33,058 nt of DNA from a virus. The notes beneath the pieces were generated by a model. That model saw only the letters and a program-made list of their open reading frames with translations, was not told the DNA's origin and did no database searches. Positions 125 through 29,720 of this stretch are shown here, one piece after another. A program made the position numbers and the translations under genes. The stretch spans positions 1-33,058 of IMG/VR virus record IMGVR_UViG_3300000115_000098, one strand, 5' to 3'. Each line of letters starts with the position of its first letter. The first letter of the stretch is position 1.

Positions 125-3100
125 TTAAAATCCAAAGTTACTTCTATCTTTTTTTTCAGAATTACTTGTTCCTCCTCCGAAGAAACTTTCTCTTTGTTTC
201 TTTCTCTCTTCTAAACCTGTTTCTGCGTTCTGTTTTTCCCAGTCTTTTTTCATATCAACTAATTGCCACTTAGACCAACCACCTAACAAAGCAGCTCTAG
301 TTAACCACTCATTTTCCTCATCAGTTGCATCTATTAGATTTTGCATTTTTCTTCTAAGTCTTTCTACTGGTGTATTAGTAAGTCCTTCAACCAAGTTAGT
401 TGAAACTTGTACCATAGGATTACTAAAAGACATTGGTCCAGGTACTTCATCTACTTTCTTCTCGTATACATAAGCGGCAGATTTTAGTTTTGAAAACCTA
501 CTGTTTATACCAGGAGCTAGTTGAGTTAACTTTTGCACCTCATCTATATATTCAGGTCTTTGTCTTTGGCTTCTTTCAACAATACCCATAGTCATATTTT
601 TAGCTACTACAAGTGCGTTACCACCTATACCAAATCCTCTAGCGTAACTATCAATCATACCGTTTAAAGTAGCAATTTCTTTTTCTGTTATGTTATCCTC
701 ATCTGCGGCAAACAAAGCTTGCGACAAGCTATTAAATAACAAATTCTGAACAAAGCCATAATACATTATTTTACTAATATTTGCTTTAGCATCACCTCTA
801 CCATTTTTAAGATCTTGTGCTGCTCTAGCTTGTAGTCTTAAATACTGTGCAGGCGTATTAGCAAATGCCAACATAATTCTACCAGCCGTGCTAGCTTGAT
901 CAGCTCCTATTTTAGAAGGATCACTAGACTGTTGAGACTCTCTAGCTAGCTTAACCCATTCTTCTCTTGCTTGAGCTGTCGCATCTGCTTCACTCATTTT
1001 TTCACGGCTTATTAAATCATTTATTCTATTCCTGTAAAAACTAGCGCCACCAAAAGAAATAGCAAAGCTATCAGCCATCTTAGTCATAACATAACCTTTG
1101 TCATGCAAATAAGACATTATGCCTTGATAACCGTTTTTCTTAGCAGCAGCAGCAACTTCAGCTTCATTAATGTTTACTTTATTACCACCTCTTCTTTCAG
1201 TTAGAAATGGATCGTTCATAAGAGTAATATAATCTTTAGCAAACTGAGGTATATTAGCAAATGCTGCAGTAGCTTTTAAAGGATTGTTAAAACTCCAATT
1301 AACGTAGTTAGCAGCAGATATAGTTTGCAATAATGCTGATCTAGTATTTAGAGTCATTGTGACTGCATTAGTATTATTTATAATATCTAACATCCTGTTA
1401 CCAACTTTTGTACCTACATCTAATCTATTTGTTCCAGCTTCCATACGAGCAAACATGTTTTCTAAAGCATCTATATATTTGTTACCTAAATTTGCTCTTA
1501 ACTTGTTTTTAGTATCTTCATTAAATATTTCATTTTTATTATTTAAAAATTCTTCAAGGTATCTTTTTCTTTTTATTGTTTTACCTATTTCCATGAGATC
1601 CATAGCTATATTACCTGTGTTCCAAGTTTCAGTTGGTTTACCATATGTCCCTTCGCCTGTGGCTTCTAGTATCTTACCAGCAAAAGATTGTAATTCAGGA
1701 TTAGATTCTACTTGCTTTATTAATTTTTTTATTTCTTTATTATTTAAGCCAGGTATTTTTTCACCAGTTTGATTCCACAAGTAAACTCTTACAGCATCTT
1801 GATTAGTAAAAGTAGTTTCTCCTACTTTTTCATTTAAGTTTTTAGGCGCTGTTTTTTTAGCTATTTTAAAACTATTATTTACTCTTGCCATGTCTATTTC
1901 AAAAGCTTGGTTACCTCTCTCATACGTGTCTAACAATGTTTCTTCGTAAAACTTAAATTGTCTTTCACCTACTTTGCCTTTACCTAACGTAGCGTATAGT
2001 AAACCTTTAAGATCTTCCATACCATAAGAAAGAAGTCTTATACCATCTTTAGATGCGCCTAAGTTTTTAGCTGACGCTAAAGAATATTTAGTATCTGGAG
2101 ATATTCTTAAAGAAGCATTAATGTAGTCGTTAAACTCTTGACCTATATTTCTAGAAGCTAAAGATGTATATATTTCTCCTGTTATGTCTAATTGGTTAGT
2201 GACAAACTTAACTGAAGATGTATTTGGTATATAATCATCTCCCATGTTTACTTTGTTATATTGCTTACCATTATATTCACCAATGTAGAAATCTGTAACA
2301 GCAACTGCTTTTTTATTTTCACCAGCTAAAGGACCTTCAGTAAACTCTGTACCTTCAGTAGTTACAATATTTTCTACAGGTATTTCATAGCCTTTGCTTT
2401 TTAACCACTCTGCTATAGCTAGCTTAGAACCACGAGCTCTTGCAGTCATTATAAACATATTTTCTGGACCTAATCTTTTATAGTCTTTAGTCCAGGTTTT
2501 CCAATAAGGACCTTCTTTTCCTCCAATTACTTGATCAAACTCTTCATAAGACATTTTATAACCGTCAGCTTCTAAAGCTTCTTTTTGAAAATTAAAGTCT
2601 TTAGCGTCAAGCTTTATTATTTCATCACCTTTAGTTGCTGTTATTTTACAGTCAGTATATGCAACGTTGTCGTCAAAGTCACCTATTGTACACTCTTCTA
2701 CATCTTGTCTTACTTTATTTAAGTTTACTTGTCTGCCTAGCTTAGCCATTTGTTCAGTAGTTAAAGCTAAGTCTTTTAAAACTGAACTTTTACCAGATCC
2801 TGGTCCACCAGCCATTAGTACCGCTACTTTATTACCGCCTTTAAATTTAGATCTAACTTTGTTTATAAATTCAATAGGTGTTTCTCCTTGGCCAAGTTTT
2901 GTGTTATCTATGTAAAAGAAATCTTGACCAAAATCTTTTTTATACTGCTTTTCATTTTTCTTTACACTTTCCCCTGTTCTTTTAACTACAACATCTAATA
3001 ATTTTCTCTCTCCTCTTTGTTGATTTCTTTGCATTGCAACTTCTTGTTTTGCATCAACATAGACCATTACAACATCGTAACCTTCTTTTCTAAGTTCGTT

Positions 3101-6100
3101 AGCTCTTTTAGTAGTAGCGTTGTAGCTAGCACCAGTACCGTCCATTACTATATTAGATCCTACTTTAACAGCAAAAGGTTTTACTGTAGCTGTAAGTTTT
3201 CTAGCTTGACCCATTATCTTGCCCATTTCACTTGAAGTTGGTTGATAATCTTTACCGTTTAACTTTTTAAGCTCTTTTATTTTTCTTTCTACATAGACAT
3301 CGACGTTGCTAGATATTGCCACTTCTTTAGCTTCTAGAGGTACTAATTGAATATTACCATCAGACGATTCTGTTATAACATCAATAGCTTTCTTACCAAC
3401 CGGGGAATTCAAATTAGGCAGGTTTTCAGTAAGATACTGATTAGCACCTTCTTTTAGTGAGTTTTTATTTACTTCATCTTGCAACTCTGTTTCTACTATG
3501 TCGTCAAGTATACTCCAAGGTTTTTTACGCATATTTAAATCAAATATATTGTAAACATTTTCAAACAAGAAATTACCATCAGCTTTAATAGCCATTTTAT
3601 AAATACCATCAGGGGTAGTTTTACCTAACAACTTATCCATTACATTAGATCTAGCGGTTTCAGTAAGAGCTTGATAATAGTAGTTGCTAAGTAACTCATG
3701 CTTAGCCGCGCTATATCCTCCTTCTTCAGTTATAGCTATAAACTTTTCTAAAGTATTACTAGAAGCATCTACTATGTGTTCACCTTTTCTATGGAAAGTT
3801 TGTTGCCCATCAAACAGTTGCATATATTTAAAAGCAGCAAAAGCTCTATCAGACTTAACAAAGTTAGTTGTTGCTTGATAATGTCTATATAAAAATTCTT
3901 TACCTTTAGTTTTCATTTCTTTAGGTAGGTTATTGTACCATAAACCTAAAGCTCTGTTCACTACAAAATCGTAAGTTCTAGCTGCTTCAACAACTCTTTT
4001 ATCAAATACTCTTTCTATTAAGTTTAATTTATCTTGTACAGTACTACCTCTAACTACTTCCATAGCTTGTGGATAATCTTTAGAGTTGTATTTTAGCTTG
4101 CCGCTTGGATCCCATAAAAATTGCTTACCGTTTTTATCTACTAAAGTATGAAAAGATTTTAAAGGTTTAGCTTCTGCTATTTCAAATATCATAGAAGTAT
4201 TCATCTTATCAAAGCCTCTACCTTTATTTATATCAGAGTTGGCAGCTTCAAAATATGGCGCTAGTTCTTTAAGCTTTTTATATCCTTCTCTTAGCTGTTC
4301 ATCTTTTATATCTTCTAGCTTAACTTCTTTTAACCCTTTAACCATGTTAGAGAACTTAACACCTTCAGGTCCTCCAGCATTGTCTATACCTCTATTAACA
4401 CTACCAAACTTAAAAATAGGTAGTAAAGCATCTTCACTAGAACCTTTACCTGCTTTTATGTTTAATATGTTATTAACATAATCAGATCCAAAGAAACTTT
4501 CAAGCATGTCCATATGATCTTTTCTTATCTTAGCTTGACCTTCTTTACTAGCGTTTTGAAACGTAGTAGTTGAGTAACCAGTTCTCTTTTTTATTTCTGT
4601 TTTAAATTGATTTGATTTTTTCTCTAGATTAGAACTTACATTATTTATAGTTATATTATGTATTAAGTTTCTAGTTACGTCATCTAGTTGCATCGGGTCA
4701 GATACATATGTTTTCATGTCTTCTAACGTCTTAACAGCGTCTCCTAAGCCTCTTATATTGTATTCATTAACTAAAGCTTCGTATGATCCAAAAGCCATTA
4801 AGTCTGGACTTGCTCCACCAGCTAAATCCATTTGCTCAGCAGCAGATGTTATTTTACCTAGTTCACTTCTATTAAAATTTTCTTGAGCTTGATGCGAAAA
4901 AGATTTGTGTATAGATCTTATAAGCCTTGGAACTCTATTACCTATTTGTCTATTGTATTCTACGTTAAATCCGAAATATTCTGTTACCGCATTAATATCT
5001 AACTCTTCTACAGGAACTTTCTTATATATAGGTAAACCTACAGCATCACCAACCCTAGCTTGCTTGCCAGTTTGTGGATCTATAACTTTTCTATAAAACG
5101 GCGACTCAAGTATAGTAGTTGTAACACCAGTAGATGTACCTGCAACTTTGTCACTAACTATAATTTCATCATTGTTTGCTCTAAAAGTTTTACCGTACTT
5201 AACATAAGCTTCAGGTAGTATTTTACTTATAGCTTTTACTTTGTTTTCTGTAGTTGTTTCGCCATCAGGCGCAAATAATTTTTCATTAGCACTAGTGACT
5301 TCTTTTTTACCTGCTACACCTTCGTTTATAGATATTTGTCTATCAACAGTTATTTTTTTATCTTTTATACCGTAATGTGATTCATAAAAACCAACTGGCG
5401 TTAAGTCAGTAACCTCTGCATATGTTTTAGGATCATCATTTTGTCTTCTATTTTCTTCATTTAAAGAATTAGAGAACTCTACTTCGTCTCCTAATATTTT
5501 ATTTTGTGAAGCTTCTGTTACTCTAGTAGGGGTAAGATCTATAGTATTATTAAAGCTTTCAATAGTTGTTGCACCTGATTCAAATTGAGTTGTGTATTCT
5601 ACAGCGATATTATCTAGTGTCATTGTGCCATCTCCTAAATCGCTAACATTAACTTCTTTATTCATAGCATCAAACACTTTAGCTTTTCTCATTACATTAG
5701 GTATTTGTAAGCCCATAAACTTACTTAAATAACCTCTTACATTACCAGTACCATCAAATCTTCCAGCATAATATACAAGTTTCTCCATTAAACCTTCTGC
5801 TATTTTATCTCTTTGAGCTTTAGGTGGTAAAAACAAACCAGCTTTAGTGTAAGATTCAGAACTATTTGCTATTATATTTATTAAATCAAGATTTTCTAAA
5901 ACAATTCTGTCAGACATAGCTTGAGAATTACCTTTTTCTCTAACTTCTTCAGATGTTTTTTCTCCATCCGAATAAGCTCTTTCTGGACTTTTTGTGTATT
6001 CTTTAAACAAATCAGCATAGCTATCCATAGAGCTTAGCCCTTGCTCTTCCATCACTTTATCTAATACTCTTTTTTCAGTTGCTTTAATATTTTTCGCTCC

Positions 6101-9100
6101 TTGTACAATGTCTGTTTCTATATTTAGCTCTCCAATACCTTTATCTACTTTCATTAGATCTTCCATAAAGTTTATTGAAGCTTCAGATAAGCCTACATCT
6201 TTAGCCATATAGTTTAGCTGTCTATAAAGATCGTTAACAGTCATTGTGCTAGGCTTTCTAGGTTTAAAACCTTCAGGTAAATTAGGTTTTATTACTCTAT
6301 CATAAAAAGCTAAGTAATCATTTTTAAGCTCTCCAAAAAACGTAGCTGCTTCCATTGGGTTTTCAGCAAGTGTTTCAGGATTAGAAAATATCTCTATTAA
6401 GTTTGCACTATACTCTAGCTCTAATATTTCAGCATCTGACATGTTAGCTTTAGTACCAAGGCCATACTCTTTTCTTAGTAACTTCATTAAGCTTTTTAGA
6501 TTTTCAGGGTTTTTTTCACCTATTAAACCTATTTTATCTACTTCACTAAATAAACCTTTTCCAATTTCTCCATTTTTGGCTTGAGATTTAACAAGTTTTT
6601 TAAGCTCAGGTTGTCTTCTATACATTTCAGCTTGTACAACATGGTCTATCTCATGCATAGCTTTACCCTTGTTAAATTTAGCTACATCGTAAATTAACTT
6701 GTAGCCACCACCTTTAACTGGCATAAACTTAGCAGCGCCACCATTTAACAATGCAAAGTTAGCATCACCTTCTTTAACAAACTCTACAGTAGTTTCCATT
6801 GGCTCAAGTCCAGCTTCTTTAGCTTTCTTAGCCATGCTTTCATTTAGTCTATCTATGTATAGTTTCTTAAAGTTTTCAGGATTTTTAAAATCTCTAGATT
6901 TGCTATCCATAGCAATCATCTTAGATGCGTTAGCTAATATAATACCTTTAGTATATAGCTTATCATATAAAGCTTTAGCTTCAGGATTATCAGACTTAGC
7001 TAATTTAACTAACTGCTCTAATACTTGGTCATTAGTTAATTCTTTACCATCAACACCTTCAAACTTACCTTTAGCATCTGATAAGGTTTTATTGTAATCT
7101 TTCTGTAACTCTACTAAAGCTTGTCTCTGTGCTTTTCTAGACTGAGGATTTAATTTTAAATGAGATACACCAGACAATCCAAATACCATGCCATCTACAA
7201 TAAGAGTTTGTATAAACTCTTTTTTAGCGTCCTCATCCCCTGATAATAAATCACCATATAAGTTATCCATTTCAGTTGCAAAATCTTTATCACCTAATAA
7301 GTCTTTTCCAAAGGCTTGTACTATTTCATTTGTTTTAGTAGACAAAGCACCAACCCAGCCTGCTCTAACTACTTTTTCGTAGAAAGGTCTAAGAGTTGTA
7401 AAGTATTTATCAAAAGCTTTTATAGGTATTTTGTTAGCTAACATACCTCCAGCCGCAAAGAAAGCTCCAACACCAAATTCATATGGCGTACTTGGTGCTA
7501 ATCCCATTTTAAATTCTTCTTTAACTAAAAGCTCTGTTCCTTTTAAAAACTTGTTAAATCTTTTGTATCTAGTTAAAGCAGCAGGTATGCCAATACCTTC
7601 TGTAGCAGCTCCTATAACAAACATCTCAAATAAGAAAGGTACCATACCTCCTAATCCTTCAGCTACTAAATCTGAAGTTGTGCTAGCAAGTTTTTCTTTT
7701 TGCCTGTCATTAAGTTTTATAGTATTATCTGGAAACTTTTTATTGTGTAAGTCTATTATACTTTGTGTAGAAGCTTGCATTTTTTGCACATCTACACCAA
7801 ATATAGCTCTACTAGTTTGTTCAACAGATTCCCGTGTACCTCCATAATAAAAATCACTACTTTTAAAAGCCTCTACTGTTTTTCTAGCTAGTCTCGGAAA
7901 GAAACTATCTTTAAAACTTTTTTCTGGTAATTGTTGTAAGTTTAACATATTAAACGCAGCTACCATATTTCTTTTATGCTCTCTCTTGTCGTTTAACCAA
8001 GCTTCATAAGCTCTAAAGTTTTCAGGATCAGTACCTAACATAGCCTCATCAAGTGGTCCACTTATCTCTGAATTACTTATACCTAGCTTGTAATACTCAG
8101 AAAAAGGCATAGTTACTTTTTCTTGAACTCCAATCTCACCTGTTTCAAATTTTTTACCTAAACGAGAAGCTACAATTGCTAAGTTGGCTTTAAAAGAACC
8201 AAAAGCAGCATCACCAACACTAGTCTTATTTAATGCAGTTTTAAAAGCAGGTAACAATAATAAATCTTTAGGTATAGTTATTTCACTAGTGTTTCCTACT
8301 TTATTATTAAATATAGCTAACTTTTTTTCTTCGTCATATAATAATTTAAACTGATCTTTTTGGCTCAAATAATCATCAGTATTTTCATACATAGAATATA
8401 TCTCTTCTAAAGAAAGCATATTAGCCTCTGCATCTTCTTTAGTTTCACCTTTAAAATCTCCTTTTTCATTAAAAATTAAGTCGCCAATTTTAGCTTCTAT
8501 ATCTCTAACTTTTATATTGTTCTTATTTATATACTCACCATAAGGCATATTTACACCATTAGGTAATTCTATTATAGTATTATATTTTTCTTTGGAATAT
8601 TCACCGTATTCAGAAGTAATACCGGCTTTTTCAGACTTTAAAAATGTTAATGTATTAATATCAGCTACTCTTGCTTTGTCTTCGCCAGACATGTCTTTTA
8701 CAATTTCTTCTTCTAAACTTTTTATAAACTTAATTTCAGGTTCTCCTTCTAAGTTTATATCTTTAAAATCTTTAGTAGCTATTATTTGTGAGTTAGCTTC
8801 ATCTTGAAGCTCCGCATTTAATAAATATTTAAATTCGTTTCTATCTATTATTTTAGATATATCCTGTAGCTCAAGATCTTCAAAGCCTATATTACCGGAT
8901 ATTTGTTGTTCTTTTAAAAAATCAAAAGTATACTCTCTTATTTTTTCTTGATCAGAGTGATTTAAGTTTTGAAAGTCGTTTCTTTTACTTAATAAAAATT
9001 CATTAGAAGTATCATCACCAGCTATTTCTTTAGCTAGTTTAGTATATGCATCTTTGTAGCCTACCTCTAGTACTTGAACTAGATTTTTAGTTGCTGTAAC

Positions 9101-9673
9101 ATTTGCATTAAATCCATAATCTCCGTTTTCATCAGGTGTTAAACCTGTTTTACTATGAATATATAATGCGTCTTCATTATTAGTTTCTGAGGCCTCTACA
9201 AAAGCAGTAAAACTTTTATACTGTTCATCTGCACTAGGAGTTAAAGAAGGATTAACACCCATGTAATCTCTTGATTGAAGACTGCTATTAGTTTTGTTTA
9301 TTTCTTTTTGGTCAAGTAAAAAACTCTTTGATTCTCCCGTACCTATATTAGTAACATTGATACGGCCATTAGAATCTTTTTTTATTTTAACTTTAGGATA
9401 TATAGAAGATAATTTACTAGTACCAGCGGTCTTAGCATCTTCAAAAGAAATATGTTTATATTCTTTTGGAGGATCAGTATCAGTAATTAATTCTTGCTTA
9501 AGATCTGCTAACTCCGATGAAGTAGTTTCCAAGCTGGATGCCCCACTTTCTGGATCCGCAGTCGGGGCAGTTGTTATCTCCGGATCCTCTGTCTTTTCCA
9601 CGGGTTGTTCTTCAACAAGTTCTTCTACGCCTAGTATTTCGTTTTTAAGTAACTCTAAATCTTTGTTTTCCAT
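125..9673 (-). CDS. Giant polyvalent virion/ejection protein (metallopeptidase + P-loop kinase + HAD phosphatase)
   Basis: This 3182-residue protein is the last gene of the virion operon. Residues 1-75 are acidic, Ser/Thr-rich and probably disordered. Hydrophobic Gly/Ala-rich stretches near 664-690 and 730-750 could enter membranes. HEIDH at 1007-1011 is an HExxH zinc-metallopeptidase motif, with candidate third-ligand Glu residues in an acidic helix at 1082-1094. Residues ~2150-2300 hold kinase elements in an odd order: MDGTG (2177-2181), an Arg-rich RNQQR segment near 2213, then Walker A GGPGSGKSS near 2288. A HAD phosphatase follows: DFDD (nucleophile D2332, acid D2334), motif II T2410, a Lys near 2455, and DD at 2479-2480. 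Residues ~2910-2990 (SQQSS...ANTPAQYLR) resemble a C-terminal block I recall from other marine phage giants. The position after the lysozyme protein suggests an internal, ejected protein in the manner of T7 gp16, although no homology to gp16 is visible. The start follows the previous stop as TAATATTATG, with no SD. Confidence 0.8.
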   Translation of the reverse strand: MENKDLELLKNEILGVEELVEEQPVEKTEDPEITTAPTADPESGASSLETTSSELADLKQELITDTDPPKEYKHISFEDAKTAGTSKLSSIYPKVKIKKDSNGRINVTNIGTGESKSFLLDQKEINKTNSSLQSRDYMGVNPSLTPSADEQYKSFTAFVEASETNNEDALYIHSKTGLTPDENGDYGFNANVTATKNLVQVLEVGYKDAYTKLAKEIAGDDTSNEFLLSKRNDFQNLNHSDQEKIREYTFDFLKEQQISGNIGFEDLELQDISKIIDRNEFKYLLNAELQDEANSQIIATKDFKDINLEGEPEIKFIKSLEEEIVKDMSGEDKARVADINTLTFLKSEKAGITSEYGEYSKEKYNTIIELPNGVNMPYGEYINKNNIKVRDIEAKIGDLIFNEKGDFKGETKEDAEANMLSLEEIYSMYENTDDYLSQKDQFKLLYDEEKKLAIFNNKVGNTSEITIPKDLLLLPAFKTALNKTSVGDAAFGSFKANLAIVASRLGKKFETGEIGVQEKVTMPFSEYYKLGISNSEISGPLDEAMLGTDPENFRAYEAWLNDKREHKRNMVAAFNMLNLQQLPEKSFKDSFFPRLARKTVEAFKSSDFYYGGTRESVEQTSRAIFGVDVQKMQASTQSIIDLHNKKFPDNTIKLNDRQKEKLASTTSDLVAEGLGGMVPFLFEMFVIGAATEGIGIPAALTRYKRFNKFLKGTELLVKEEFKMGLAPSTPYEFGVGAFFAAGGMLANKIPIKAFDKYFTTLRPFYEKVVRAGWVGALSTKTNEIVQAFGKDLLGDKDFATEMDNLYGDLLSGDEDAKKEFIQTLIVDGMVFGLSGVSHLKLNPQSRKAQRQALVELQKDYNKTLSDAKGKFEGVDGKELTNDQVLEQLVKLAKSDNPEAKALYDKLYTKGIILANASKMIAMDSKSRDFKNPENFKKLYIDRLNESMAKKAKEAGLEPMETTVEFVKEGDANFALLNGGAAKFMPVKGGGYKLIYDVAKFNKGKAMHEIDHVVQAEMYRRQPELKKLVKSQAKNGEIGKGLFSEVDKIGLIGEKNPENLKSLMKLLRKEYGLGTKANMSDAEILELEYSANLIEIFSNPETLAENPMEAATFFGELKNDYLAFYDRVIKPNLPEGFKPRKPSTMTVNDLYRQLNYMAKDVGLSEASINFMEDLMKVDKGIGELNIETDIVQGAKNIKATEKRVLDKVMEEQGLSSMDSYADLFKEYTKSPERAYSDGEKTSEEVREKGNSQAMSDRIVLENLDLINIIANSSESYTKAGLFLPPKAQRDKIAEGLMEKLVYYAGRFDGTGNVRGYLSKFMGLQIPNVMRKAKVFDAMNKEVNVSDLGDGTMTLDNIAVEYTTQFESGATTIESFNNTIDLTPTRVTEASQNKILGDEVEFSNSLNEENRRQNDDPKTYAEVTDLTPVGFYESHYGIKDKKITVDRQISINEGVAGKKEVTSANEKLFAPDGETTTENKVKAISKILPEAYVKYGKTFRANNDEIIVSDKVAGTSTGVTTTILESPFYRKVIDPQTGKQARVGDAVGLPIYKKVPVEELDINAVTEYFGFNVEYNRQIGNRVPRLIRSIHKSFSHQAQENFNRSELGKITSAAEQMDLAGGASPDLMAFGSYEALVNEYNIRGLGDAVKTLEDMKTYVSDPMQLDDVTRNLIHNITINNVSSNLEKKSNQFKTEIKKRTGYSTTTFQNASKEGQAKIRKDHMDMLESFFGSDYVNNILNIKAGKGSSEDALLPIFKFGSVNRGIDNAGGPEGVKFSNMVKGLKEVKLEDIKDEQLREGYKKLKELAPYFEAANSDINKGRGFDKMNTSMIFEIAEAKPLKSFHTLVDKNGKQFLWDPSGKLKYNSKDYPQAMEVVRGSTVQDKLNLIERVFDKRVVEAARTYDFVVNRALGLWYNNLPKEMKTKGKEFLYRHYQATTNFVKSDRAFAAFKYMQLFDGQQTFHRKGEHIVDASSNTLEKFIAITEEGGYSAAKHELLSNYYYQALTETARSNVMDKLLGKTTPDGIYKMAIKADGNFLFENVYNIFDLNMRKKPWSILDDIVETELQDEVNKNSLKEGANQYLTENLPNLNSPVGKKAIDVITESSDGNIQLVPLEAKEVAISSNVDVYVERKIKELKKLNGKDYQPTSSEMGKIMGQARKLTATVKPFAVKVGSNIVMDGTGASYNATTKRANELRKEGYDVVMVYVDAKQEVAMQRNQQRGERKLLDVVVKRTGESVKKNEKQYKKDFGQDFFYIDNTKLGQGETPIEFINKVRSKFKGGNKVAVLMAGGPGSGKSSVLKDLALTTEQMAKLGRQVNLNKVRQDVEECTIGDFDDNVAYTDCKITATKGDEIIKLDAKDFNFQKEALEADGYKMSYEEFDQVIGGKEGPYWKTWTKDYKRLGPENMFIMTARARGSKLAIAEWLKSKGYEIPVENIVTTEGTEFTEGPLAGENKKAVAVTDFYIGEYNGKQYNKVNMGDDYIPNTSSVKFVTNQLDITGEIYTSLASRNIGQEFNDYINASLRISPDTKYSLASAKNLGASKDGIRLLSYGMEDLKGLLYATLGKGKVGERQFKFYEETLLDTYERGNQAFEIDMARVNNSFKIAKKTAPKNLNEKVGETTFTNQDAVRVYLWNQTGEKIPGLNNKEIKKLIKQVESNPELQSFAGKILEATGEGTYGKPTETWNTGNIAMDLMEIGKTIKRKRYLEEFLNNKNEIFNEDTKNKLRANLGNKYIDALENMFARMEAGTNRLDVGTKVGNRMLDIINNTNAVTMTLNTRSALLQTISAANYVNWSFNNPLKATAAFANIPQFAKDYITLMNDPFLTERRGGNKVNINEAEVAAAAKKNGYQGIMSYLHDKGYVMTKMADSFAISFGGASFYRNRINDLISREKMSEADATAQAREEWVKLARESQQSSDPSKIGADQASTAGRIMLAFANTPAQYLRLQARAAQDLKNGRGDAKANISKIMYYGFVQNLLFNSLSQALFAADEDNITEKEIATLNGMIDSYARGFGIGGNALVVAKNMTMGIVERSQRQRPEYIDEVQKLTQLAPGINSRFSKLKSAAYVYEKKVDEVPGPMSFSNPMVQVSTNLVEGLTNTPVERLRRKMQNLIDATDEENEWLTRAALLGGWSKWQLVDMKKDWEKQNAETGLEERKKQRESFFGGGTSNSEKKDRSNFGF

Positions 9674-9677
9674 AATA

Positions 9678-12170
9678 TTATTTAAACATATTTACCCTAT
9701 TACTGTGGCTATTTCTATAAGCTTCAACTGCGGCTTTCAACTTAGGACTGTTATTATCTTTCATCACCTTTATTCTACCTAAATACAATTCATCTTTAGC
9801 AGCCGCTATAGCTTCAGCTGATATTTCACCAGCTTTAAGTGCGTCGTACACTTCTTTTGTAGGTTTTGGCGCTGTACCTTTAGCAGCTTTTAAACCATCC
9901 CAAGTTTTATTTAAATTACTTGAATCTTTTTTACCCGCTTGTTGATTTTGATAAGCAATTATAAGCAAGTCATCCATACTTCTGCCAGTATTCATTTTAT
10001 AATCAACTAAACTAGCAGTTACATTTTTAGGTATTGAATCTAACTCACCAAGCTTAAATCCTAAATCATCTTCTACTTTAGGAACAACAGCTGTCTTTAT
10101 ATATTTCACAGCTTCTTCAGGAGATTTAGGTGTATTTGGATATGTTTTTTTATCTGTAAATCCATACCCAGGTGTACCAGTACCATCTGTTAGTCCGCCT
10201 ATTGTTTCAAAGTTAATTATTTTTCTATATTGATCATCTAAACTACCATCATTTTTATATACAGCTGCATCTCCTACTCTTGTATTAGAGCTGTAATCTC
10301 CACCTCCAAAGCTTGTTTCAGATAATTGTCCTACTTGTGCGGCAGGTGGTGTAGCTGCTTGAGGCTGTATACCTAATTGTGCCTGTACACTGTTATCTAC
10401 TGGTTGTGTTTGACTTAATGGAGTAACGTTGTCTAAAGCCGCAGCTTGACTACCACCGCCTAAACCATCGGTTTCCCATGGCCAGTCTATAGTATTGCTA
10501 TTTAATGGTTTTTCAGAACCTTCAACTTTTTCCATGTATTCTGCATAGCTAATGCCGCCTTGTGTTTCTGTACTAGTTATTCTAACACTTTCTTTTTCAG
10601 AGCCATTGTAGACTCCTTCAACTTCTCCACCAAACTCATCAGAATTATAAAAACCATCAACATGTTTTCTATCTGTAGTTCCTTGAAAATTACCTTTCAT
10701 TAAACCTAGCTCAAGCTTACGCCTTCCACCTAAATCATTTAACTTGAAATAGCCTTCTTCTGGCTTTATCTTATTACCATCTTTCATAACTAAAACCATG
10801 TCAGATGAACCTGTTGATATTGGCTCCATGTGATCTATTGTATAAGTCTTGCCTCCTTGACTATATGGTCTATTCTGTATATATAGATTGAAATCATTCA
10901 TTGCATCCTTGTCGCCAGGTAATGTAGGTAGTAATCTACCAACTTCACCGTGTACTTCTTCATAAAAACCTTTAACAACTTTAGAGTTAGTGTCTTTCGT
11001 ATACTGACGGCTTGTAGTTTCTTTGTTTGGCGAAAGCATGTCTTTGTCACCATCTGATATTAAAGGATCTAAATCTTCATATAGTCTAGTTTTTAGCTTT
11101 AGCATGGCTTGATCGTAACCTTCTGTACCTTGTTCAGGAAATTTAGCAGCTACATCCGCGCCAAAGTAAGCTTGAACAGCAGCGTCAATACCGCCATGTT
11201 TCTCTATCATAGCGTCTACAGTTACAGCAGCCCCTTCGCCATTAATAAAATAATCTTGTGTTTTTTTCTCATTAAGAACTTTCATTTTGAAAGGGACGCC
11301 ATCAGGACCGGTTACATTATATATCTTAAACATGTCAACAGCTTTGTTGTTTTGAGCTGTTTTTATAATTGGTCCCATATCTTTAGCAACTTCAGATTTA
11401 TCTTTTATATCTTGAAAATAAACTTCTTGATTACCGTTAATATAGTTTGTTTTCATTTTACTCAAATCTATAACTTCTGTATCATCAGCTATACCAAAAC
11501 CTTCTTCACCCTCTGATTGGCCATCAAAATATATAGTGGTACCTCCAGTTAGGCTACCACTTATTTTCATTTTACTCCATTGAATATCTTCTTGACCTTC
11601 TGCATCTCCGGTCATAGCAGAAAATATATTACTAAATTCACTACCAACAACAACACTACCAGTGTTTTTACCGTTGCTTCCATCACCAGCCTTTATACCT
11701 TTAGCATGTGCATTAGCTAATCCTTCAAAAGCCACAAGAGATTCACCAAGATCATTAGCAGCGTCTATTTGACTTTGAACAAAAGCGTTTATTTGGCTTT
11801 CAGTAGGATTTTTTATTGGCTCTTCTCCTTCTTTAGATATGTATTGACCTCTTACAAAAGCTTGTATGTTATCGTAACCCTCATCAAATCTACCAGCTAT
11901 TTGATCACTAAATTGTTTCTTAGCATCTTTAGCCATATCAGGTCTAGTACGCGCAAACTTTCTAGATGATGCTCTAGAATCTTTAACAGCTTTGTTATAA
12001 ACATCTCCAAAGCTTCCATACTTTTTAGCTTGTGCAGCTTTTCTAGCTTGCTTTCTTTTACCTATTAACTGCAGGTTGGCATCTACGTTTTTATAAAGGT
12101 TGTTTAGTTCACCTCTGACTTTTTCAAATCTTTTGTCAACAATAATTTGTGGATCTGCGTATCTTCCCAT
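9678..12170 (-). CDS. Virion-associated protein with C-terminal lysozyme-like domain
   Basis: The protein has 830 residues from the preferred start. An upstream in-frame ATG at 12206 would add 12 residues, but it lies inside the previous gene; the ATG at 12170 begins MGRYADPQ behind an A/T leader like those of its neighbours. The N-terminal ~120 residues are charged and helical (Lys/Arg/Ala-rich). A Gly/Ser/Gln/Pro-rich linker precedes the C-terminal part. Residues ~650-760 resemble a GH24-type muramidase: E655, D662 and T672 in FETIGGLTDGTGTPGYGFT recall the Glu-Asp-Thr triad of T4 lysozyme, and the order of parts after it fits (a helical segment with DYKMNTGRS). It probably opens peptidoglycan during genome entry, as a virion-associated lysin, rather than releasing progeny; no holin adjoins it. 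The lysozyme call is moderate and the virion location is inferred from context. Confidence 0.75.
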   Translation of the reverse strand: MGRYADPQIIVDKRFEKVRGELNNLYKNVDANLQLIGKRKQARKAAQAKKYGSFGDVYNKAVKDSRASSRKFARTRPDMAKDAKKQFSDQIAGRFDEGYDNIQAFVRGQYISKEGEEPIKNPTESQINAFVQSQIDAANDLGESLVAFEGLANAHAKGIKAGDGSNGKNTGSVVVGSEFSNIFSAMTGDAEGQEDIQWSKMKISGSLTGGTTIYFDGQSEGEEGFGIADDTEVIDLSKMKTNYINGNQEVYFQDIKDKSEVAKDMGPIIKTAQNNKAVDMFKIYNVTGPDGVPFKMKVLNEKKTQDYFINGEGAAVTVDAMIEKHGGIDAAVQAYFGADVAAKFPEQGTEGYDQAMLKLKTRLYEDLDPLISDGDKDMLSPNKETTSRQYTKDTNSKVVKGFYEEVHGEVGRLLPTLPGDKDAMNDFNLYIQNRPYSQGGKTYTIDHMEPISTGSSDMVLVMKDGNKIKPEEGYFKLNDLGGRRKLELGLMKGNFQGTTDRKHVDGFYNSDEFGGEVEGVYNGSEKESVRITSTETQGGISYAEYMEKVEGSEKPLNSNTIDWPWETDGLGGGSQAAALDNVTPLSQTQPVDNSVQAQLGIQPQAATPPAAQVGQLSETSFGGGDYSSNTRVGDAAVYKNDGSLDDQYRKIINFETIGGLTDGTGTPGYGFTDKKTYPNTPKSPEEAVKYIKTAVVPKVEDDLGFKLGELDSIPKNVTASLVDYKMNTGRSMDDLLIIAYQNQQAGKKDSSNLNKTWDGLKAAKGTAPKPTKEVYDALKAGEISAEAIAAAKDELYLGRIKVMKDNNSPKLKAAVEAYRNSHSNRVNMFK

Positions 12171-12183
12171 ATTTATATTTTTT

Positions 12184-12852
12184 TTAATTACCCATTGCGC
12201 CAGCAACGCCTGTTAAAGTTCCTGCTGCTCCTGCAAAGCCTTGAGCCACGGCCGCCATAGCGTCTCCTCTATATTGATCTTCTCTTGCTATGTCTCTGTC
12301 TATTAAACCTGCTGTTCTATCTAGCTTCTGTTGTTCTCTATTTTCTCTAACTTGAAAAGCAAATTGCTCGCCTTGAGCTTTTAGTTTTTCGTTTTGTACA
12401 AGCTGTTGTTCTATATTAGCAGAAACACCTTGCTTAGACTTCATAGCTGCTTGTGCTAGTGCTGTTGCACCACCAGCTCCCATACCTGTAGAAGCTAACG
12501 TATCTAAAGTATTTGCCAATGCTTTATCAGTTTCTTGTATTTGCATTTCAGCTGCTTGAGTAGCTACTGATATATTTTCATAAGGATTTATAATATCTTG
12601 TCTAGAGTTTTCTAACTCACTAAGTAAATTTTCATTTTGAATTCTTCTTTCTTCAGCTTCATTAGCTAACTTATTAGCCTGTGCTTGCTGTATGAAGCCC
12701 ATTGTTATTTGCCCAGCAGCCATAACCCCTCCAGTGATGGCTAGAGTTGTGTCCATTTTACTACTCATATTTCTTGATTTATTTGTTTTTGTGGTAGAGC
12801 CACTACCAAAATCTTTTTCTATTTCTAAGTCTATATCATCGTAAGGTCCCAT
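12184..12852 (-). CDS. Small internal/ejection protein (T7 gp14-like in character)
   Basis: The 222-residue protein has an acidic N-terminus and a hydrophobic segment at about 37-55 (LAITGGVMAAGQITMGF). A long Gln/Glu/Ala-rich helical region (~60-190) follows, then a Gly/Ala-rich hydrophobic C-terminus (AAVAQGFAGAAGTLTGVAGAMG). Two apolar ends around an amphipathic coiled-coil core are typical of podoviral internal proteins that line a channel through the envelope. The next two genes, a lysozyme-bearing protein and a giant protein, repeat the T7 order gp14-gp15-gp16, which supports an ejection role; no sequence family can be named. The stop overlaps the upstream alternative start of the lysozyme gene, and its own ATG follows the previous stop as TAATATG. 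Confidence 0.65.
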   Translation of the reverse strand: MGPYDDIDLEIEKDFGSGSTTKTNKSRNMSSKMDTTLAITGGVMAAGQITMGFIQQAQANKLANEAEERRIQNENLLSELENSRQDIINPYENISVATQAAEMQIQETDKALANTLDTLASTGMGAGGATALAQAAMKSKQGVSANIEQQLVQNEKLKAQGEQFAFQVRENREQQKLDRTAGLIDRDIAREDQYRGDAMAAVAQGFAGAAGTLTGVAGAMGN

Positions 12853-28919: not shown

Positions 28920-29191
28920 TTACTTCTCCCTTCTGCAAAACCCTTAAAAGTTTTTTGTTCTTTAACTTCCTTAGGTTTTTCATTTAGCATATCTTCTTCT
29001 TGTTGTATACGATTAAGTATTTCAAAAGCATCGAATATAGCTAGTTTTTTAGTAGCGGCAGCATTCTTTAATCTGTCAGCGCTTACATCGTCGTCTGAGT
29101 CAACAATCTTTTCTTTTGCTACCTTTATTAATTCTTCTACAGCTTTTTGCCCAGCTTCTATAATTTTTATTTTAGTTTCTTTGGTTTTCAT
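28916..29191 (-). CDS. Small helical protein, candidate small terminase subunit
   Basis: The protein has 91 residues and is helical and charged: EAGQKAVEELIKVAKEKI, a DSDDDVSADRLKNAAATKK segment, IFDAFEILNRIQQEE, then a basic tail (FKGFAEGRSK). It lies immediately before the large terminase and overlaps its start by four bases, the usual place of the small subunit that recognises viral DNA. No helix-turn-helix can be asserted, and the protein is short for a TerS. An unrelated packaging accessory or DNA-binding role is equally open. Its start overlaps the preceding GroES-like gene by 20 bases. Confidence 0.55.
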   Translation of the reverse strand: MKTKETKIKIIEAGQKAVEELIKVAKEKIVDSDDDVSADRLKNAAATKKLAIFDAFEILNRIQQEEDMLNEKPKEVKEQKTFKGFAEGRSK

Positions 29192-29720
29192 AATTTAATA
29201 CAATTTTATTTAATCTCATACAGTAGAGCTTTTCTTTGTTAATTAAAAACTCAAATTCAGATTCTGGTTTAAAAATTATATGGTCACCAACTTTTACATA
29301 TTGGTTTTGTGGGCAAGTATGAACTACACCTTCATTTGGCTGCTCTTTTCTAGTATGTAAATAGCTAGAGTTGTCAACAGGTTTAATAAAACAATAATCT
29401 AAATGAGATTTATCGTTATACATATACAACTGATCAGGTCCACAAAAATAAAGATCGTCTTTAAAATACCTAGCACTATTTCTTTCTCTACCTTTTTGGT
29501 CGTACCATCTTCTAAATATATTGTGATGAACATATACTTCATCACCTATTTTAACTGGAGAAGAGTAAGCAGTCGGTGTCGAAACAACAACTGCTTTTTT
29601 ACTCACAAATTTGTGGTCTTCTATTATGGTATTTATAATAAGAGATTTATCTCCTACTTTTGTCTCATTATCATACCTTTTGTTTAAAGGTTTAATAATA
29701 AAGTCGTACAAGCTATTCAC
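29172..29720 (-). CDS. Tandem GroES-like co-chaperonin (putative)
   Basis: The protein has 182 residues from a GTG at 29720. It reads as two GroES folds in series. Unit 1 (~5-105) has FIIKPLNKR, a VVVSTPTAYSSPVKIGDEV core, then RYFKDDLYFCGPDQLYMYN. Unit 2 (~108-178) has CFIKPVDN, GVVHTCPQNQYVKVGDHIIF and INKEKLYCMRLNKIVL. GroES shows the same series: an I[RK]PL-D-R start, an xVVxxG turn, VKxGDxVxF, then a DGxxYxxxxxxDIL end. Phage co-chaperonins such as T4 gp31 fit GroEL to capsid protein, and this gene lies in the cluster before the head genes, so a role in coat folding is plausible. The mobile loop is not clearly identifiable. The stop-start overlap with the preceding gene is eight bases. 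Confidence 0.6.
   Translation of the reverse strand: MNSLYDFIIKPLNKRYDNETKVGDKSLIINTIIEDHKFVSKKAVVVSTPTAYSSPVKIGDEVYVHHNIFRRWYDQKGRERNSARYFKDDLYFCGPDQLYMYNDKSHLDYCFIKPVDNSSYLHTRKEQPNEGVVHTCPQNQYVKVGDHIIFKPESEFEFLINKEKLYCMRLNKIVLNYENQRN

Follow-up and report, generated by a model that had tools for sequence, protein, structure and literature searches.

The 3182-residue protein encoded at 125..9673 on the minus strand of the window, a stretch of 33,058 bases that makes up a whole virus record, is best explained, in a reading that we consider reasonably likely, as a polyvalent virion cargo that would be injected, process itself and act in end healing or anti-defence. Its unusual features, neither of them listed in the first-pass annotation, are an apparently permuted kinase and the swapping of cassettes within the gene. 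The reading frame starts with ATG and runs through 3182 codons without an internal stop, and the earlier description of one gene taking up about 29% of the window was accurate: it is a single intact ORF (9549/33058, 28.9%). We read it as a coding gene and not a chance ORF because the one full-length ortholog known, in IMGVR_UViG_3300025626_000080 (L002), is 3073 aa long and 46% identical by blastp over 3269 aligned columns, and because relatives of the C-terminal ~1000 residues are present, at about 32-41% identity, in dozens of giants.

The giant is encoded among late virion genes. As had been proposed, it closes the virion operon, being the last gene of a co-oriented block that comprises the terminase (TerL), portal, scaffold-like, capsid (MCP; phrog_13704) and other structural genes followed by two muzzle-like genes, one of which carries the crAssvirus muzzle C-terminal domain PF25729 (crAss_MUZ_C). 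The window portal is 41-51% identical to those of the Flavobacterium elemo phages, Maribacter phage Panino and the unclassified podovirus ctfjg026, and 26-35% identical to those of Cellulophaga and Tenacibaculum phages (Pervagoviridae, Pachyviridae); judged by sequence, it would be a portal of the kind found in Elemovirus, Panino and the Pervagoviridae/Pachyviridae. The upstream neighbour of the giant (9678-12206) encodes an 842-aa protein that is 85% identical to its counterpart in L002, versus 97-99% for genes further upstream. It had been called a lysozyme, a name that was not confirmed: Pfam gave no match for it, and its C-terminal 201 aa matched no PDB sequence. Upstream of the terminase, positions 29172-29720 match a GroES co-chaperonin PHROG (4e-15), and GroEL/GroES are found in relatives too. 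Between the stop codon of the giant and the window end (1-124) there are hairpin-forming stretches; AAGGGGAGGTC...GACTTCCCCTTTTT (minus strand, ~41-70) looks terminator-like by eye and is absent from the list produced by a simple scan.

A scan of IMG/VR with the kinase core yielded 72 loci, 46 of which are giant ORFs, some of them truncated; L002 and L016, both already known, are included. Two more giants (L100 and L101) were found on contigs of an Aliivibrio-labelled MAG; these are probably phage contigs binned with a bacterium, and the label may say little about the host. In all eight giant-group contigs tested (L047, L052 and L065 among them) the portal is 55-87% identical to that of the window. 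Another relative, L105, encodes a 2422-aa giant with family matches at 1062-1424 and 1611-2380; a kinase match is absent among the matches listed. One related phage (contig G005) encodes a separate RNA polymerase sigma factor (L108, 6415-7176; phrog_351, E 7e-22). The terminal virion gene product measures 3694 aa in elemo, 3859 in ctfjg026, 1829 in Panino, 1691 in phi38:1 and 1935 in phi18:3. Most of these related phages have a giant gene in terminal position; none was found in the stretch read after the portal of Gundel_1, and the window C-terminal block had no sequence-level match in the five isolate genomes searched. The earlier remark that the protein matches no named example is right in that its family is unnamed, but the protein does not stand alone: it belongs to a sizeable family whose members close the virion operon in marine phages akin to Bacteroidetes podoviruses.

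Over 10.2 kb that cover virion genes and the start of the giant gene, the window and L002 share 95.3% identity, and 123 of the 124 bases after its stop codon match. Within the gene, 178 of the first 180 bases are identical, corresponding to a constant N-terminal leader (residues 1-63; 9485..9673, minus strand), after which identity collapses, to ~50% at the DNA level and mostly ~25-45% at the protein level, up to about residue 2240, and then climbs to 80-95% over most of the C-terminal block. The exchanged segment (2944..9485, minus strand; 3' boundary approximate) is flanked by sequence of 80-99% identity. Blockwise breaks of the same kind separate L053 and L056, which are about 90% identical except at the very start and in three adjoining blocks of 15-28%, as well as the pairs L045/L072, L038/L046 and L044/L050. 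On these alignments the giant gene is a mosaic, its middle swapped between near-identical phages. The theme has precedent, since mosaicism of polyvalent proteins in Helicobacter was noted by Iyer et al. (PMC5512222); here it is seen between near-identical phages. The exchange pattern suggests that the leader and the C-terminal block most likely serve packaging or ejection, and that the middle would be an exchangeable effector set.

The kinase parts reported at the first pass were recovered by Pfam as Zeta_toxin (PF06414; best at residues 2155-2224, E 1.8e-13, 50.8 bits against a cut-off of 22.3). A kinase profile built from 46 relatives with the canonical order matched the window giant in two pieces, a core without P-loop at residues 2123-2278 (2840..3307, minus strand; NxD, DGTG and RNxxRxER motifs; 110.9 bits, profile positions 39-197) and, after it, a P-loop element at residues 2281-2324 (2702..2833, minus strand; GGPGSGKS at 2289-2296; 18.4 bits, profile positions 7-50; pLDDT ~88). 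The phosphatase claimed earlier follows at residues 2325-2500 (2174..2701, minus strand) and is recognised as an HAD-type domain by its conserved motifs only (D2332xD2334, T2410 and D2479-D2480): it had no Pfam or PDB sequence match, and an HAD profile gave no convincing match to PDB sequences. An AlphaFold2 model of residues 2110-2515 reached pLDDT values of mostly 77-95 over the kinase, counted from its DGTG strand and with the relocated strand and P-loop included; the end of the HAD part was of low confidence. The best PDB fold match of the kinase model was the polynucleotide kinase 4gp6 (Foldseek probability 0.99, E 0.015; the Foldseek E-values of the kinase against PDB exceeded 0.01), and its best PDB profile match was 4gp7, of the same family (E 0.001). 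Among relatives, with near-identical contigs counted separately, the kinase is nested in the HAD domain, separating motif I from the remainder, in 28, has no HAD found beside it in 15, and has moved N-terminally, with an unbroken HAD, in two; one is truncated. In L059 and L065 the kinase lies just after the zincin and the unbroken HAD far downstream.

A DxD-motif phosphatase adjoins the kinase in the window giant, as in Pnkp-type enzymes, and the two would make a polynucleotide kinase-phosphatase-like pair. Such a pair would repair the ends of nucleic acids, phosphorylating 5' and dephosphorylating 3' termini, or would counter host defence in some other way within the first minutes, a target that we propose tentatively. 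The RNA ligase family PF09414 was not found in 24 partial contigs, and a search with PF09511 gave no match, its controls being silent too; the missing ligase weakens a T4-like tRNA-repair reading, though the contigs are partial. Another possible explanation is that the kinase is a zeta-type toxin which phosphorylates cell-wall precursors (UDP-sugars) and so weakens peptidoglycan for DNA entry. The Pfam match above cut-off points that way, as do the role proposed for zeta-like kinases in other polyvalent proteins (PMC5512222) and one BFVD relative labelled UDP-N-acetylglucosamine kinase. We consider it unlikely, however, since the best PDB sequence and fold matches are to polynucleotide kinase and not to zeta, ~28 relatives carry the kinase inside an HAD phosphatase, the kind of partner found in Pnkp enzymes, and no antitoxin-like gene was seen in the virion operon.

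Returning to the polynucleotide-type kinase, its P-loop kinase catalytic elements are present, but the Pnkp-type order, P-loop before core, is not the one seen in the window or in L002. In both, profile positions 39-197 come before 7-50 (in the window only two residues apart), whereas other kinase-bearing giants have the P-loop first. Profile order and structural model together indicate that the kinase of these two proteins is almost certainly circularly permuted, in the order core, P-loop, HAD; in the window lineage, beta1 and the P-loop now follow the last helix of the kinase and directly precede the HAD domain. No more permuted kinases were found beyond L002, a weak negative because the scan needs short conserved peptides. 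An assembly error is an unlikely source of the permutation, which occurs in two separate contigs whose sequences differ strongly over this stretch. In a tree of the C-terminal block the permuted pair groups with the nested-kinase giants (local support 0.90), and the permutation therefore likely arose from a nested ancestor, as far as such a tree can tell. That core and P-loop give separate profile matches could also mean that residues 2123-2278 are a dead kinase, with the P-loop at 2289 forming the start of another, truncated NTPase. This is improbable: a second kinase would not fit into the stretch of under 40 residues that separates the P-loop from HAD motif I, core and P-loop element jointly cover profile positions 7-197 with little overlap, both orthologs retain the DGTG and RNxxRxER residues, and beta1 and the P-loop are placed by the model at pLDDT ~88. 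It is quite possible that the family is injected and evolves by exchanging enzyme cassettes in its interior, with the leader and the C-terminal carrier block kept constant, and that its polynucleotide-type kinase passed from being nested in HAD to being permuted before it, while remaining catalytic.

The protease motif mentioned at the first pass lies in a zincin-like metallopeptidase region (residues 927-1137; 6263..6895, minus strand), with HEIDH at 1007-1011 and E1087 as candidate third ligand. HExxH was found in 47 of 53 giants, exactly once in all but one of those, against a chance expectation of 0.005 per protein. Across an alignment of 19 sequences, only H1007, E1008, H1011 and E1087 (window numbering) are invariant; as this alignment was partly anchored by the HExxH motif itself, it is the invariance of E1087 that carries more weight. 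For polyvalent MPTases the described pattern combines HExxH with a glutamate located on a subsequent helix (PMC5512222). A search of PDB sequences with the zincin profile gave no convincing match. Self-processing by the protease is a serious possibility that falls short of being likely; as has been suggested for polyvalent proteins, the zincin would probably split the polypeptide into its working parts while it enters the host or afterwards.

Zincin, kinase and HAD are unrelated enzymatic domains in one chain. A Pfam sequence search of the giant returned no recognised LPD or other polyvalent family. The C-terminal block noted earlier was confirmed as a conserved helical block (residues 2510-3182; 128..2146, minus strand) and is included in a model of residues 2090-3182 (mean pLDDT 62, pTM 0.46). 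In BFVD this model matched three uncultured-virus proteins at 30-33% identity and, with a Foldseek probability of 1.00 at 10-14% identity, several 'Large polyvalent protein associated domain' and 'PolyVal ADP-ribosyltransferase' proteins together with an elemo 'Structural protein'. TM-scores of the BFVD matches were low (0.2-0.4, and 0.2-0.3 for the proteins with LPD or PolyVal annotation), which would fit a floppy multi-domain model, and we rate this predicted-fold evidence as moderate; a PDB fold search with the 1093-residue model was uninformative. Because of the match to phage proteins annotated as large polyvalent or PolyVal-ART, the giant is very probably a polyvalent protein, as had been guessed. 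By analogy with the C-terminal region of the N4 virion RNA polymerase (PMC5512222), the C-terminal block may have a role in packaging. Another conserved domain is marked by the nearly invariant E1965-H1966 motif (3776..3781, minus strand), often EEHxxPAS in relatives.

Operon position and relatives suggest that the giant is probably packaged in the virion. The records of phi18:3 gp123 and phi40:1 gp101, encoded at the same operon position, read 'annotation based on experimental MS/MS proteomics analysis', and the N-terminal core of gp123 is homologous to the N-terminal region of ~20 kinase-bearing giants. The N-terminal core domain of the window giant (residues 582-859; 7097..7930, minus strand), common to L002, L047, L048, L049 and L067, had no significant match to the MS/MS-detected group by sequence or profile. 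The idea of a polyvalent, packaged and ejected protein therefore holds at the level of the family, through position, the zincin with its unrelated enzymes, the fold match and the MS/MS-annotated counterparts, but the core of the window protein is not linked to the detected ones. This core may act in ejection. Of the 'membrane-like segments' reported for the protein, a single hydrophobic stretch within the core was found (~668-700, maximum Kyte-Doolittle 1.72) and no others. Such a segment, and the existence of podoviral ejection proteins (PMC10172136), would also suit a purely structural ejection protein that merely lines the DNA channel and whose domains are relics, yet the invariance of catalytic residues across very divergent giants and the retention of the kinase in 15 giants with no HAD found beside it make this a poor explanation. 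Least probable of all is that an injected sigma-like domain makes the giant mainly an early-transcription factor: the sigma-70 region 2-like stretch at residues 1256-1345 (5639..5908, minus strand) is weak and was rejected as a sigma-factor domain, because similar-looking stretches seen by eye in other giants and a Sigma70_r2 match in the ortholog only (E 0.0067; 1 of 16 giants) are opposed by the lack of any PDB match and by the separate sigma factor of a relative. Polyvalent cargo remains the preferred reading, in which the giant would be a late product that is packaged next to the genome and driven into the host along with the DNA.

These results would tie a mostly uncultured phage group with many members to the polyvalent-protein idea, and offer natural cases in which cassettes are exchanged within a probably injected protein, as well as one kinase family that occurs on its own, nested in a phosphatase and permuted against one. 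Packaging and processing are approachable in isolates with a gene at the same operon position (Flavobacterium elemo, Cellulophaga phi18:3 and phi40:1).

Among known systems, the Crassvirales cargo proteins gp45-gp50, which are packaged and thought to be ejected (PMC10172136), are likewise encoded after a muzzle gene, and the window has a crAss_MUZ_C match; unlike them, the giant did not match crAss cargo or RNAP families in sequence searches. The N4 virion RNA polymerase, a ~3,500-aa ejected protein whose C-terminal region is needed for encapsidation, shares an HExxH domain with the giant (PMC5512222), in which no RNA polymerase was matched in Pfam or PHROG, searches that very divergent crAss-type RNAPs could escape. 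Cellulophaga phi18:3 gp123, phi38:1/phi40:1 gp101, Flavobacterium elemo gp18 and the giant of Maribacter Panino share its operon position, and their phages have homologous portals; the phi18:3, phi38:1 and Panino giants, unlike that of the window, lack HExxH. The kinase domain of Clostridium thermocellum Pnkp, and T4 Pnkp, the phosphatase of the latter being of HAD type, resemble it in their P-loop kinase core and kinase-phosphatase pairing, but the window kinase differs in its apparent circular permutation, in its place inside a 3182-aa virion-operon protein and in that no ligase partner was found. Closest are the polyvalent proteins (Iyer et al. 2017, PMC5512222), among whose domains a zeta-like kinase is known: they too are giants with several unrelated enzymes per chain, a zincin and a virion-gene setting, and the window protein departs from them in having no Pfam LPD sequence match and in a kinase that, across its family, is nested in or seemingly permuted against an HAD domain.
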